From Flagellimonas abyssi (lineage in GTDB: Bacteria > Bacteroidota > Bacteroidia > Flavobacteriales > Flavobacteriaceae), in the NCBI RefSeq assembly GCF_019457905.1, contig NZ_JAHZSV010000012.1, positions 1 through 64,000 of the forward strand: DNA of 64,000 bases, given 5' to 3'. Under the pieces are notes generated by a model. That model worked only from the letters and a program-made list of their open reading frames with translations, had not been told where the DNA came from and did no database searches. Position numbers and translations under genes: made by a program. Below are positions 59,790 to 64,000 of the stretch, one piece after another (the first letter of the stretch is position 1; each line of letters starts with the position of its first letter).

Positions 59790-62700
59790 ATGCTGCAGCA
59801 TTTAAACATAGAACAATTTACCACCCAAAGTGGTGTTGCCCAAGACCTGAAGTTGTCATATCAAATTTTTGGTAAACCCTTGCACACGGCACCCATCATT
59901 TTGGTGAACCACGCGCTTACGGGCAATTCCAATGTAGCGGGGAAAGATGGATGGTGGTCTGATCTGATCGGGGATGGAAAATGTATCGATACCGAGAAGT
60001 ACACCATATTATCGTTCAATATTCCTGGAAATGGTTTTGATGGTTTCATCATCGAAAACTACAAGGATTTTGTGGCAGGGGATATCGCCAGAATTTTTCT
60101 TTGGGGATTGGAGCAATTAAAGATCGATAAACTGTTCGCCATTATCGGCGGCTCTTTGGGTGGTGGAATTGCTTGGGAAATGGCGGCCATCAACCCAAAT
60201 ATCACGGAGCATTTGATTCCCGTGGCATCCGATTGGAAATCCACGGATTGGCTGATTGCCAACTGTCAGATTCAAGAGCAGTTTTTGGTCAATTCCAAAC
60301 AGCCCGTGCACGATGCCCGTATGCATGCGATGTTGTGCTACCGAACACCGGAATCCTTCAAAGAAAGATTTAAGCGAAGCACCAACGAAGAGCTACAGGT
60401 TTTCAATGTGGAATCTTGGTTGATGCACCACGGTGAAAAGTTGCAAGAGCGTTTTCAGCTATCGGCCTATAAGTTGATGAACCAACTGTTGAAATCCATC
60501 GATATAACCAGAAATGGGGAAGAAGCTTTCAAGGCATTGCAGGAGAGCGACACCAAAATCCACATCATCGGGGTCAATTCCGATTTGTTCTTCACGGCGG
60601 AGGAGAACAAGGAGACATTTAAAAGATTGGCCCAAGCCAATACCAATGTGACTTATGGCGAGGTGCAATCCGTACATGGTCACGATGCCTTTTTGATGGA
60701 GTTTGAACAATTGGAAAAATTGTTGGAGACTGTTTTCCAAAAGAATACCGAACGTATCAAAATATTGAAGTTTGGCGGGAAATCCTTGGCCAACGGAGAG
60801 GGTATTCAGCGTGTATTGAAAATTATCACCCAAAGGTTTGAAGCGGAAGAACGCTTTGCCGTTGTGGTTTCCGCTCGTGGCAAGGCAACGGACCAACTGG
60901 AAAACTTGCTCGAAAAAGCGGCCAAGGGAGCTGATTTTCAAACTGATTTAAAGAAGTTTGCCGATTATCAAAAAAACAATTTTGATGGTGTGGACATTGA
61001 TGAAGAGCTGGCGACCATAGAAAAAATATTGAACGGGGTTTCCCTGACCGGAGACTACAGCTTAAAAACGAAGGATGAAATCTTATCCTTTGGAGAATTG
61101 TTGTCCGCCAAATATGTGACGGCCTCGCTCAATGCATCTGGGTTAAAAGCAAAGCTTTTGGATTCTCGAAAGTTGATCAGCACGGATGACAATTATAGCA
61201 ATGCCGAAGTAGATCAAGGTGCCTCCAAAGAAAATGTACTTCGATATTTCCATGCACTGGAAAAGGATACCATTCCGATAGTCACTGGTTTTATTGGTTC
61301 CAACCGTGATGGTTCAACGACCACTTTGGGCAGGAACGGGAGCAATTATTCCGCAGCGCTGCTGGCCAATTTTTTGGATGCGGGTGAGTTGATCAATTAC
61401 ACCCACGTGGATGGTATTTTCACGGCCAATCCGGATTTGGTGGCAGATGCACGATTAATAGATGTGATTTCCTATGGCGAGGCCAATGAGCTCGCCAATT
61501 TCGGAGCGAATATTTTGCACGCGAAGACCATAATTCCACTGATCGAGAAAAACATTCCATTGCGCATATGCAACACCTTCAACGATGATAACGAAGGCAC
61601 TTTAATTGGTCCAAAAAGTGATAATGGAGGAATTAAATCCCTTTCAGTGCTCGACAATATGGCCCTCATCAATTTGGAGGGTAGGGGACTGCTTGGTAAA
61701 GTGGGTGTGGACATGCGTATTTTTAGGGCATTGGGCCAAAATGGTATCAGCGTAGGTATTGTTTCTCAAGGATCTTCGGAACGGGGCATCGGTCTCGTGG
61801 TTGATGCATCCAAAGCGGACAAAGCCAAAAAAGTGCTCGACCAAGAGTTTGAGACGGATTACTCTTCGAAAGACATCAACCAGATTTCAGTGGTCAAGGA
61901 TGTTTCGGTCATTTCCATTGTCGGAATGGATTTGAGCAGTTTTCACAAACCCTTCAATGCCTTGGCGAAGAACCAAATCACGCCCTTACTGTTCAACAAT
62001 ACGGTAACCGGGAAGAACGTGAGCATGGTGGTGAAAAAGTCCGACTTGAACAAGGCCATCAATGTGATTCACGGACAGATTTTCGGAATCGCCAGGAAAA
62101 TCAATTTGGCGTTGTTTGGACACGGCAATGTCGGCGGAACGCTGATCAGTCAAATTCTGGATTCAAAAAATAGTATCGAAGACCGAAAAAGTATTGATTT
62201 AAAAGTGTTTGCCGTGGCAAATTCCAAAAAAGTGCTTTTGGATGCTTCGGGAGTTGGTGCTGATTGGAAAGAACGTTTGGAAAACGAGGGACAGCCTTAT
62301 CAACTTGAAGATATTACCGCATTTGCGAAACAACATCATTTGGAAAACCTGATTGCTGTGGATAACACGGCGAGCAAAACCTTTGTTGAGCAATACGAAT
62401 CATTGATTGAGCACGGTTTTGACTTGGTTTCATCAAACAAAATTGCAAATACGTTGAGCTTTGAGAAATACAAGTCGGTGCGGGCGTGTTTGGACAAGAA
62501 TCAAAAGCAATACCTCTACGAAACCAACGTGGGGGCAGGGCTCCCATTGATAGATACCATCAAACTGTTGCATTTGTCCGGTGAGAACATCACTAGAATC
62601 AAAGGCGTGTTTTCGGGATCGTTAAGCTATATTTTCAACACCTTTTCCGAGAAAGATGTTTCTTTTTCAGAAATCGTAAAGGAGGCTATGGAAAGCGGCT

Positions 62701-63170
62701 TTACCGAACCCGACCCAAGAGAAGATTTGTCCGGTAACGATGTGGGAAGAAAACTTTTGATTTTGGCCAGAGAATTGGACCTTCAGAACGAGTTTTCGGA
62801 TATTGATGTACAAAACTTGATTCCAGAAGAACTACGAACTTTGGATTTTGAGAAATTCATGGGACGAATAGGGGAGATGGATGATGTTTATAAGAAAATT
62901 AAAGAAGACCAGAAACAAGGACACGTGCTTCGCTATATAGGTGATTTACATGGCGATTTGCAACAGGACAAAGGTATTTTGGACGTACAATTGGTGTCTG
63001 TGCCCAAAGAAAGCGCTTTGGGGCAGGTGAAAGGTTCCGATTCCATTATTGAGATTTATACAGAATCCTATGGAGAACATCCCTTGGTAATTCAAGGAGC
63101 AGGTGCAGGAGCCGCTGTAACAGCAAGAGGTGTATTTGGTGACATTTTAAGAATAGCAGAGAAAATATAG
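59790..63170 (+). CDS. Triple fusion: MetX-like homoserine acetyltransferase, aspartokinase domain, homoserine dehydrogenase
   Basis: 1126 residues. 1-318: MetX-type alpha/beta hydrolase, with NHALTGNSN, nucleophile S122 (GGSLGGG), D265 (NSDLFF) and H298 (GHDAFL). 323-765: aspartokinase with two ACT-like regions (about 620-765). 770-1126: homoserine dehydrogenase, NAD(P) motif GHGNVGG (777-783), K884 and the ETNVGAGLPLIDT block. Thus aspartate phosphorylation, aspartate-semialdehyde reduction and homoserine acylation could be joined. Three aspartokinase positions are altered: KFGGK at 327-331 (usually KFGGT), N519 where the GSDY aspartate is expected and H539 where the TDVDG aspartate is expected. 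K327, T367, E436 and R515 are kept. It lies 30 bp after metY, under the same SAM-I switch. Confidence 0.95.
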   Translation: MLQHLNIEQFTTQSGVAQDLKLSYQIFGKPLHTAPIILVNHALTGNSNVAGKDGWWSDLIGDGKCIDTEKYTILSFNIPGNGFDGFIIENYKDFVAGDIARIFLWGLEQLKIDKLFAIIGGSLGGGIAWEMAAINPNITEHLIPVASDWKSTDWLIANCQIQEQFLVNSKQPVHDARMHAMLCYRTPESFKERFKRSTNEELQVFNVESWLMHHGEKLQERFQLSAYKLMNQLLKSIDITRNGEEAFKALQESDTKIHIIGVNSDLFFTAEENKETFKRLAQANTNVTYGEVQSVHGHDAFLMEFEQLEKLLETVFQKNTERIKILKFGGKSLANGEGIQRVLKIITQRFEAEERFAVVVSARGKATDQLENLLEKAAKGADFQTDLKKFADYQKNNFDGVDIDEELATIEKILNGVSLTGDYSLKTKDEILSFGELLSAKYVTASLNASGLKAKLLDSRKLISTDDNYSNAEVDQGASKENVLRYFHALEKDTIPIVTGFIGSNRDGSTTTLGRNGSNYSAALLANFLDAGELINYTHVDGIFTANPDLVADARLIDVISYGEANELANFGANILHAKTIIPLIEKNIPLRICNTFNDDNEGTLIGPKSDNGGIKSLSVLDNMALINLEGRGLLGKVGVDMRIFRALGQNGISVGIVSQGSSERGIGLVVDASKADKAKKVLDQEFETDYSSKDINQISVVKDVSVISIVGMDLSSFHKPFNALAKNQITPLLFNNTVTGKNVSMVVKKSDLNKAINVIHGQIFGIARKINLALFGHGNVGGTLISQILDSKNSIEDRKSIDLKVFAVANSKKVLLDASGVGADWKERLENEGQPYQLEDITAFAKQHHLENLIAVDNTASKTFVEQYESLIEHGFDLVSSNKIANTLSFEKYKSVRACLDKNQKQYLYETNVGAGLPLIDTIKLLHLSGENITRIKGVFSGSLSYIFNTFSEKDVSFSEIVKEAMESGFTEPDPREDLSGNDVGRKLLILARELDLQNEFSDIDVQNLIPEELRTLDFEKFMGRIGEMDDVYKKIKEDQKQGHVLRYIGDLHGDLQQDKGILDVQLVSVPKESALGQVKGSDSIIEIYTESYGEHPLVIQGAGAGAAVTARGVFGDILRIAEKI

Positions 63171-63190
63171 CTTCGACTTCGCTCAGCTAC
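63168..63190. repeat. Dispersed palindromic repeat, copy 4
   Basis: The core TCGACTTCGCTC (63173-63184) with TAGCT (63168-63172) and AGCTA (63185-63189) flanks; the stop codon of the fusion gene is part of the left stem. Together with the next copy (63209-63234) in opposite orientation it can form a longer imperfect hairpin. Confidence 0.7.
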
Positions 63191-63208: not shown

Positions 63209-63234
63209 GGTGGCTGAGCGTAGTCTAAATAGCT
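63209..63234. repeat. Dispersed palindromic repeat, copy 5 (degenerate)
   Basis: The core GAGCGTAGTCTA (63216-63227) differs by one base from the consensus and its right stem is decayed (AATAGCT against GGCT). Confidence 0.6.
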
Positions 63235-63251: not shown

Positions 63252-63276
63252 GGTGGCTGAGCGTAGTCGAAGCCAC
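63252..63276. repeat. Dispersed palindromic repeat, copy 6: left end of the GIY-YIG unit
   Basis: The core GAGCGTAGTCGA (63259-63270) with GTGGCT and AGCCAC flanks. All 25 bases are the exact reverse complement of 63599-63623. It ends 8 bp before the GIY-YIG start codon. Confidence 0.85.
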
Positions 63277-63283
63277 AATTAAA

Positions 63284-63598
63284 ATGAAAGGATACGTCTA
63301 CATATTGAAATGTTCAGATGGTAGTTTTTATACAGGGAGCACTATTGACTTGGATAAACGGTTAAAGGAACATCAATATGGGCGGGGTGCCAATCATACC
63401 AAAAAGAGGTTGCCTGTGGAGTGGTTGTATGTTGAAGAGTATTTGAGTATTGCAAAAGCCTTCGAACGCGAAAAGCAAGTTCAAGGATGGTCTAGGCTAA
63501 AAAAGAAGGCGTTGATAACAGGAGAGTTTGATGCGCTGCCAAATTTGTCCGAGTGCAAGAACGAGACGAATTTTAGATATTATAAGGAGAAAAAATAA
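63284..63598 (+). CDS. GIY-YIG nuclease family protein
   Basis: 104 residues. Motifs of the single-domain (UPF0213/YhbQ-type) group: GYVYIL (Y4-V-Y6) for GIY, FYTGST (Y16-T-G18) for YIG, catalytic R26 in DLDKRLKEH, and the metal-binding glutamate in KAFEREKQVQGWS (E61 or E63). Domain ends near residue 80; the last 24 residues are a lysine-rich tail. The family cleaves DNA; the chromosomal single-domain members have no settled role. Its stop codon directly abuts the right inverted repeat. Confidence 0.92.
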   Translation: MKGYVYILKCSDGSFYTGSTIDLDKRLKEHQYGRGANHTKKRLPVEWLYVEEYLSIAKAFEREKQVQGWSRLKKKALITGEFDALPNLSECKNETNFRYYKEKK

Positions 63599-63623
63599 GT
63601 GGCTTCGACTACGCTCAGCCACC
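63599..63623. repeat. Dispersed palindromic repeat, copy 7: right end of the GIY-YIG unit
   Basis: The core TCGACTACGCTC (63605-63616) with GTGGCT and AGCCAC flanks; exact reverse complement of 63252-63276. It begins at the base after the TAA stop of the nuclease gene. Confidence 0.85.
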
Positions 63624-63638
63624 TAAAATTGAACTGAA

Positions 63639-64000
63639 ATGAAAGGCAAAAAATTCGAGACGCAAGCAATAAGAACGCAGATGGAGCGCAGTCAAAACTT
63701 GGAGCATTCCAGCCCCATTTATATGACCTCCAGTTTTGTTTTTGAAGATGCGGAGGACATGCGTGCTTCCTTCGCCGAGGAGAAGCAACGGAATATTTAT
63801 TCCAGGTATTCCAACCCCAATTCCAACGAACTCATTGAAAGGGTTTGCCAGATGGAAGGGGCTGAGAGCGGTTTTGCTTACTCCTCCGGTATGTCAGCCG
63901 TTTTTTCAACTTTGGCTGCTTTATTGGATACGGGCGATCACGTGATATCTTCCAAAAGTATTTTTGGGTCCACGCACACCCTGTTCACGCAGTTTTTTCC
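63639..64000 (+). CDS. Cys/Met metabolism PLP enzyme, probable O-succinylhomoserine sulfhydrylase (partial, 3' end outside window)
   Basis: An ATG at 63639 opens a frame running off the right edge: MKGKKFETQAIRTQMERSQ, then LEHSSPIYMTSSFVFEDAED, RNIYSRYSNPNSNELIERVCQMEG and FAYSSGMSAVFSTLAALLDTGDHV. This is the N-terminal part of the cystathionine gamma-synthase family. The YSRYSNPN and SSGMSA blocks fit MetZ-like sulfhydrylases better than MetY. About 120 residues are visible; the PLP lysine lies beyond the edge. It would be a second sulfhydrylase beside metY. Its start lies 15 bp after the right repeat of the GIY-YIG unit. Confidence 0.88.
   Translation, partial: MKGKKFETQAIRTQMERSQNLEHSSPIYMTSSFVFEDAEDMRASFAEEKQRNIYSRYSNPNSNELIERVCQMEGAESGFAYSSGMSAVFSTLAALLDTGDHVISSKSIFGSTHTLFTQFF

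Follow-up and report, generated by a model that had tools for sequence, protein, structure and literature searches.

A GIY-YIG nuclease gene bounded by inverted hairpin repeats in the met gene cluster of Flagellimonas abyssi as a candidate nuclease-driven counterpart of REP/RAYT

The met gene cluster of Flagellimonas abyssi contains a one-gene unit that is probably a small REP-nuclease element, in which a single-domain GIY-YIG endonuclease acts as the dedicated partner of the repeat family that surrounds it. The unit lies near the end of the window, the 64,000-nucleotide stretch of DNA that was analysed. On the best reading it represents a REP-associated GIY-YIG system working like REP/RAYT with an unrelated enzyme; the association between gene and repeats is strong, and we infer cleavage and mobilisation of the repeats by the enzyme. 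Five observations carry this reading. Single-domain GIY-YIG genes in many phyla are bracketed non-randomly by inverted hairpins, the repeat families are specific to nuclease subclades, the stems beside the repeat core covary, catalytic-type residues are conserved with a low dN/dS, and gene and repeats are jointly present or absent at one exact site in most genomes.

The preliminary description of this DNA had reported perfect 25-bp inverted repeats around one GIY-YIG gene, with the start codon close inside the left repeat and the stop codon touching the right one, and both points were confirmed. The nuclease gene (63284..63598, + strand, 104 aa) is intact from ATG to TAA and lies between two arms of 25 nt each (63252-63276 and 63599-63623) that are 100 % complementary and spaced 322 nt apart. 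The ATG follows the left arm after a gap of seven bases. The placement of the unit between a MetX-AK-HSD fusion and a sulfhydrylase gene was upheld as well. The upstream host gene (59790..63170, + strand) matched Abhydrolase_1, AA_kinase, ACT and Homoserine_dh, and the downstream host gene (63639..64000, + strand), a partial ORF that runs off the window, resembles O-succinylhomoserine sulfhydrylase. The left arm, REP 2, is on the - strand and has the stem GTGGCT/AGCCAC with a 12-nt loop GAGCGTAGTCGA, while the right arm, REP 3, is on the + strand and adjoins the nuclease stop codon. Two further copies were found on the left side: an intact hairpin, REP 1 (TAGCT-TCGACTTCGCTC-AGCTA, 63168..63189, + strand), evident from its sequence and inverted relative to REP 2, and a decayed copy (GGTGGCTGAGCGTAGTCTAAA, 63209..63229, - strand) recognised by repeat comparison within the window. 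The order from left to right is REP 1 (+), decayed REP (-), REP 2 (-), gene, REP 3 (+). The TAG stop codon of the MetX-AK-HSD fusion (63168-63170) forms the first three bases of the REP 1 stem; the end of the host fusion gene is taken over by REP 1. As single-stranded DNA the segment from REP 1 to REP 2 folded into one long hairpin of -26 kcal/mol, compared with -11.6 +/- 2.1 kcal/mol for shuffled sequences (z -6.9). The arms folded singly are weak hairpins (-5.0 and -4.5 kcal/mol; REP 1 alone, -1.7 kcal/mol).

The nuclease belongs to the GIY-YIG endonuclease superfamily on the basis of its domain score (PF01541, E=1.3e-16, 61.1 bits against a cut-off of 22.6, with no other domain match in the protein) and its conserved Tyr, Tyr, Arg and Glu. 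Residues Y6, Y16, R26, H30 and E63, which we take to be the catalytic-type residues of the GIY-YIG domain, were conserved in 157-161 of 161 aligned relatives. The closest solved chains were the UPF0213 proteins 1zg2 (E 3e-15) and 1ywl (E 2e-10). The clade A gene (clade letters are the labels of this analysis) is under purifying selection, with a median dN/dS of 0.069 from 34 usable pairs of 105, in which dS was mostly high. A defence or phage origin of the protein was rejected, as comparison with PADLOC and PHROGs gave 0 matches at E 0.01.

The repeat is dispersed through the source genome (4.41 Mb in 111 contigs), where its core TCGACTNCGCTC occurs 64 times and the reversed control sequence 0 times; 22 of the 64 copies form exact inverted pairs less than 100 bp apart. 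Covariation was examined in 99 distinct copies, chosen by the core GAGCGNAGTCGA from the sequence stretches analysed, so that the core was fixed by selection and the stems were free to vary. Pairing at stem positions 1-4 was 98, 95, 93 and 87 %, as opposed to 50, 50, 32 and 34 % after shuffling, and position 3 showed all four Watson-Crick pair types. The core is common to two tag classes, TGTC and xxGG. The window copies are of the GG class, and TGTC-tagged copies with the window's core occur in the same genome. Elsewhere in this genome (C60:99751-100274, in L120), six REP cores follow one another in the same orientation at intervals of ~101 bp.

Three single-domain GIY-YIG genes are present in the source genome, each with a different surrounding repeat: the window repeat, an array of GTCATTTCGA...GAGAAATCT units on contig C46, and an 83 % inverted pair, ATTCCGAGCG... 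/ ...GCTCGGGAT, on contig C39. The C46 gene, of clade D (L118, C46:42900-44880), sits in a dense array of GTCATTTCGA...GAGAAATCT hairpins on both sides and in both orientations, with 22 pattern matches within 3 kb of the gene, and the array resembles the REP mosaics described beside rayt genes.

The preliminary description had proposed that such repeats should be enriched at single-domain GIY-YIG genes over their neighbours. This enrichment was found, both in the genus set described here and in a wider set (see below). The genus set consisted of 39 genomes of the genus and some relatives, including the source genome, with 81 short-frame PF01541 matches among the matches listed (to near E 1e-6), and up to 20 kb of sequence around each gene. 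Among the 81 are a frame of 256 aa (G016:C7) and a match interrupted by an internal stop (L090). Excluded were G037:C127, which has an internal stop, G033:C34, with a frame of 68 aa where its contig starts, and matches in long frames, some of them the size of UvrC. Flanks were long enough at 78 of the 81 for inverted-flank scoring and at 79 for tagged-hairpin scoring, and control genes were called crudely, as ATG-to-stop frames of at least 240 nt. An inverted-flank score of at least 14 was reached by 29 of 78 single-domain GIY-YIG genes and, among the other ORFs of the sequence around them, by 10 of 1208 (Fisher 7.5e-30), and a score of at least 20 by 10 of 78 and 2 of 1208, respectively. These two high-scoring controls were a PDDEXK_3 gene and a gene with a close 23S_rRNA_IVP homologue in L080. 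A strict GTC-tagged hairpin was present at 12 of 79 genes versus 47 of 1082 controls (on both sides, 7 versus 0), with GTC ranking third among tags. The GTC signal is weak in the genus set because the stems of these repeat families are too short, and their loops too long, for the criterion.

Repeat sequence went with protein subclade in the genus-set flanks. For clade A, the upstream arm GGTGGCTGAGCGNAGTCGAAGCCAC ended no more than 12 nt from the start codon at seven of eight genes; at the eighth (G008) the best GGTGGCTGAGCGNAGTCGAAGCCAC match was 152 nt away on the upstream side, with a variant that has a different stem lying nearer. At the six clade F genes TGTCAGGTCGAGCGCAGTCGAGACC was found whole, in part or as a variant. 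The MEYFVYIIYS and MFYTYALNS types did not fit, having terminator-like or no clear inverted repeats. Subclades occupied few orthologous places, usually with one copy per genome, the exceptions being MEYFVYI tandems in two genomes; locus numbers are rough, since any 150-bp flank match was used for grouping and several subclades were lumped. Frequent hopping of the gene within a genome is not favoured, given the few orthologous places and the single copy per genome. The tandem MEYFVYIIYS-type genes, three copies in L069 (G013:C1:510163-511105) and two in L105 (G011), were accompanied by terminator-like hairpins and no tagged REPs. Separately, an array of same-orientation GTCATTCTGAATTCATTTCAGAATCT-type hairpins, mostly ~87 bp apart, was observed at G023:C11:823011-824430.

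Other small ORFs, encoding a PDDEXK_3 nuclease and 23S_rRNA_IVP proteins, were also found between inverted repeats (L045:11806-12180, L045:4218-4583, L079:325-660, and L080:13314-13673 with a homologue in L077). These cases were noticed at the top of the control score list. Flank scores of at least 14 were obtained for five of seven IVP and PDDEXK_3 genes versus 5 of 1201 other controls, a comparison that is no independent test since its four seed genes were taken from the top of that list. They are possibly further one-gene elements bounded by hairpins.

The wide set extended the association well beyond the genus. It comprised 80 loci from a search with seven proteins of other subclades, the loci not being selected by repeats; 79 were scored, 28 of them from Bacteroidota. 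At 69 of 79 loci a GTC-tagged hairpin lay within 150 bp of the gene; the control ORFs of these loci had one in 32 of 427 cases. Such hairpins lay on both sides at 41 of 79 genes versus 2 of 427 controls. Among size-matched controls the figures were 5 and 1 of 121. When all 64 trinucleotides preceding hairpin stems were ranked, GTC came first and TGG, the complement of a CCA tail, second. By a looser criterion, the nearest hairpins of the 80 loci carried the tags TGTC (89), CGTC (20), AGTC (4) and GGTC (1) among 114, with a CCA tail in 75 of 114. The tails pointed toward the gene in 30 of 42 loci with hairpins on both sides (p=3e-10), and the median distance of the nearest hairpin was 18.5 nt from the start codon on the upstream side (56 loci) and 13 nt from the stop codon on the downstream side (58 loci). 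A tagged hairpin on at least one side was found in 16 named phyla, and was absent at 10 of the 79 loci. On the best reading, the nuclease-driven counterpart of REP/RAYT is shared by many phyla and takes in the CGTC class of REPs.

The met site was compared in 59 of 60 genomes of the genus, including the source genome (G045 was not read). An empty site in relatives, which the preliminary description had anticipated, was found in exact form in 34 of 59 genomes, where the two met genes overlap or nearly touch. The site held repeat-gene-repeat, or a contig-edge part of that arrangement, in 17 of 59, a repeat pair without the gene in 2 and other short spacers in 6. All 17 gene-bearing sites had at least one exact repeat core. 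Entry of the gene into pre-existing repeats is not favoured at this site, with 34 of 59 genomes empty of both and repeats alone in only two. In a quick tree of the HSD segment, in which one long-branch join was flagged, gene presence required 15 changes compared with 14.8 for shuffled labels, and at least 10 of the 15 were forced by well-supported branches. The number of changes would be underestimated if anything, because HSD adjoins the gene and would travel with it. The sulfhydrylase start was shorter in several occupied alleles than in their empty sisters (G011 versus G052, G050 versus G005), and exact restoration by deletion is therefore unlikely at those sites. Allele exchange between strains or repeated gain would fit the met site better than deletion. 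Among 15 clade A genes, GIY-YIG distances correlated more closely with sulfhydrylase distances (rho 0.65) than with HSD distances (0.44). No target-site duplication was detected at 18 sites with gene or repeats, where similarity did not exceed that of shuffles (p >=0.44); the right flank was too long at G048 and G055, leaving 16 of the 18 sites clean. In the lack of such a duplication at these 16 sites the unit differs from an insertion sequence with terminal inverted repeats. The clade A copy in G055 has no long open frame left. In one genome (G049, L267) a clade A relative was found upstream of the MetX-AK-HSD fusion, not downstream.

Repeat type and abundance were then related to the nuclease subclade, copy numbers being exact-pattern counts that miss decayed copies. 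Protein distance and repeat distance were correlated (Mantel rho 0.27, n=72, a value reached in 0 of 999 permutations), with no correction for species relatedness. In 24 genomes, four repeat families were commoner when their own subclade was present (p=0.0013 for A, 0.013 for C, 0.0019 for D and 0.017 for F), and none of the 12 off-diagonal tests of the 4 x 4 comparison of family with subclade fell below 0.05, both without tree correction. Clade D here pools two loci plus a truncated gene (G014), the C pattern also matches a related repeat type, and the A pattern is matched as well by the repeat that flanks another subclade, one carried by G004. After removal of copies within 3 kb of the gene, counted from the stretches around genes, the values were 0.0028 for A, 0.035 for C and 0.018 for D, with significance lost for F (0.090) and no off-diagonal test below 0.05, again without tree correction. 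The number of single-domain genes correlated with total repeats (rho 0.69).

For clade A, a comparison of 55 genomes gave a median of 22 repeat copies with the gene (15 genomes) and 5 without it (40 genomes; p=3.5e-5, no tree correction). From the 60 genomes, G040, G045, G049, G055 and G056 were excluded, and G060 and G004, which hold repeats only, were counted as absent; seven genomes scored as gene-absent were confirmed as such on reading their met site. No copy-number effect was detected for clade A in 10 phylogenetically independent pairs (on average 1.2 the same way, 0.6 opposite and 8.2 with no difference), and clades C, D and F provided only 2-4 such pairs. Repeat-rich genomes without the gene at the met site were G060 (35 copies), G004 (34) and G005 (27). 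In the four genomes with no single-domain match among the matches listed, copies of the four families numbered 2 (G006), 30 (G017), 18 (G020) and 0 (G021). Repeats may persist for some time after the gene is lost. Clade H was examined order-wide in 296 genomes: all three genomes with a close gene (E <1e-35, a threshold chosen after the list was inspected) were among the 11 holding its repeat (p=3.9e-5), and the repeat flanked the gene on both sides in two of the three. With a laxer cut the repeat was present in 5 of 10 gene-bearing and 6 of 286 other genomes, and G085 had 13 H-type repeats without a close clade H gene. The preliminary proposal of a nuclease-driven counterpart of REP/RAYT is partly supported: the bracketing, the empty sites and the subclade-matched repeats speak for it, and clade A copy number in tree-corrected pairs and the repeat-rich genomes without the gene at the met site speak against it.

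If the enzyme is the partner of its repeats, it would recognise the extruded or single-stranded hairpin through its loop plus tag and would nick or cut beside it. Repair or replication might then copy the hairpin elsewhere, often as an inverted pair. The gene itself would stay as a single resident copy, passing from strain to strain mainly by recombination across its site.

The nearest rivals to this reading are a homing gene and insulating hairpins that are there by chance, and each leaves either the bracketing in 16 phyla or the match between repeat type and subclade unexplained. A free-standing homing endonuclease gene would cut the empty hsd-sulfhydrylase junction and have the occupied allele copied in, with the hairpins as bystanders or regulators of expression. 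The occupation of one and the same site in 17 genomes and its emptiness in 34 of 59 are as expected under homing, as are the 15 changes that the HSD tree requires, of which 10 or more are forced, and a scatter equal to that of shuffled labels. Homing endonuclease genes pass through a cycle of gain, decay and loss, which would also give the G055 copy without a long open frame. However, homing accounts neither for tagged inverted hairpins around GIY-YIG genes in 16 phyla nor for subclade-matched repeat families, and two genomes hold the repeats at the met site without the gene; we consider it unlikely. Similarly doubtful is a second rival, under which permissive places collect both small dispensable genes and hairpins of an ordinary kind that insulate transcription or stabilise RNA, with no functional link between the two. 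Several 23S_rRNA_IVP and PDDEXK_3 ORFs do lie between inverted repeats, repeats occur in genomes without the gene, and the clade A copy-number link fails tree correction, all of which agree with permissive places. Against them stand the size-matched ORFs of the wide loci, with a GTC-tagged hairpin in just 5 of 121 and on both sides in one, the biased orientation of the hairpins, and the tracking of protein subclade by repeat type.

Two other explanations have very little probability. The 23S rRNA intervening sequences form an RNA stem that is cut out or processed, and the inverted repeats could likewise form an RNA stem around the ORF. The same anatomy, with an ORF in the loop of a stem, is seen around some IVP genes here, but the repeats are dispersed genome-wide as lone hairpins and pairs, for which an RNA stem has no need, and an RNA-level element is accordingly most improbable. 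It is just as improbable that a RAYT or other transposase moves the repeats with the GIY-YIG gene as a passenger. The source genome does have one full-length Y1 transposase gene (C34:64516), yet the Y1/RAYT family was found in only 4 of 24 genomes and was absent from 20, though most of these hold repeats, and no exact core of the A, C or D repeats lay within 1.5 kb of the two full-length Y1 genes. RAYT is not favoured as the mover in this genus, the transposase search having covered the Y1 family. In addition, the few transposase associations of CGTC REPs are described as fortuitous in the parts of Di Nocera et al. (2013, PMC3733652) drawn on here.

Beyond the genus, there is a somewhat better than even chance that the dedicated enzymes long missing from the CGTC REP super-family are, in many phyla, single-domain GIY-YIG nucleases. 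This would be an independent invention of the partnership between hairpin repeat and nuclease, in which the enzyme reads the tag and stem of its own hairpin. The one-gene units of PD-(D/E)XK and four-helix IVP proteins bounded by hairpins may be further inventions of the same kind. Relatives of the gene in many phyla likewise lie between hairpins, which suggests that their nuclease family supplies the partner so far missing for a large class of bacterial repeats. In many harmless bacteria the enzyme is small, can be expressed and has its matched hairpin, which makes the question of a dedicated enzyme directly testable. If the proposal is true, two unrelated nuclease folds would each be tied to hairpin repeats, REPs would look like a general outcome of nuclease-hairpin co-evolution, and a widespread GIY-YIG protein family of unassigned function would gain a role.

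No literature linking GIY-YIG genes to REPs was found in a search of open-access papers (the best-ranked part of longer lists, without preprints and with few subscription papers). In the passages of PMC9465073 consulted the two are co-mentioned as separate genes only, and a term search of the main text of RepRanger (PMC12306157) gave no GIY-YIG. Likewise, no post-2013 paper naming an enzyme for CGTC REPs was found in a mainly open-access literature without preprints, which is no proof of novelty. The solved UPF0213-type proteins (PDB 1zg2 and 1ywl) are of the same family as the nuclease by sequence, and their entries are named hypothetical. Free-standing homing endonuclease genes share with the unit a patchy presence at one exact site and clean empty alleles, but differ in that the GIY-YIG unit has dispersed cognate repeats and bracketing hairpins.

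REPs have been divided into GTAG and CGTC super-families, the latter with a CGTC or TGTC tag and mostly a CCA tail, and including Neisseria dRS3 and Rickettsia RPE-4/6; in the sections cited they "apparently lack a dedicated transposase" (Di Nocera et al. 2013, PMC3733652). The hairpins nearest to the GIY-YIG genes of the wide set resemble them, with a TGTC or CGTC tag in 109 of 114 and the CCA tail noted above. Unlike the CGTC REPs as reported in those sections, which have no dedicated enzyme, such hairpins bracket GIY-YIG genes here. The window's own repeat has an xxGG tag, a stem of 5-6 bp and a 12-nt loop, whereas CGTC REPs have a CGTC or TGTC tag, a stem of 8-9 bp and a loop of 4-5 nt; it is a GG-tagged relative and not a canonical CGTC REP.

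In the passages used, Nunvar et al. (2010, PMC2817692) linked RAYT to REP on three grounds: the gene lies between two inverted REPs, gene and repeat co-evolve, and the presence of the gene goes with the abundance of its repeat. Inverted repeats on both sides are found here in the window and in the wide set (41 of 79 versus 2 of 427, tails inward in 30 of 42). Co-evolution of enzyme and repeat is seen in the subclade-specific flanks and in the rho of 0.27, from which species relatedness was not removed. Presence goes with abundance before tree correction; with it, clade A gives no signal and clades C, D and F have too few pairs. As in REP/RAYT systems (REPtrons, REPINs), a single resident gene at an orthologous place is bracketed by two inverted hairpins, and the repeats are dispersed in the genome, some as inverted pairs, with a type that tracks the enzyme subclade. 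The differences lie in the tag, which is TGTC or CGTC here (GG in the window) as opposed to GTAG, and in the enzyme, a GIY-YIG endonuclease matching PF01541 only, in place of the HUH tyrosine transposase (IS200/IS605 type) of REPtrons. The parallel proposed is that the GIY-YIG nuclease would be to its hairpin family what RAYT transposases are to GTAG REPs.
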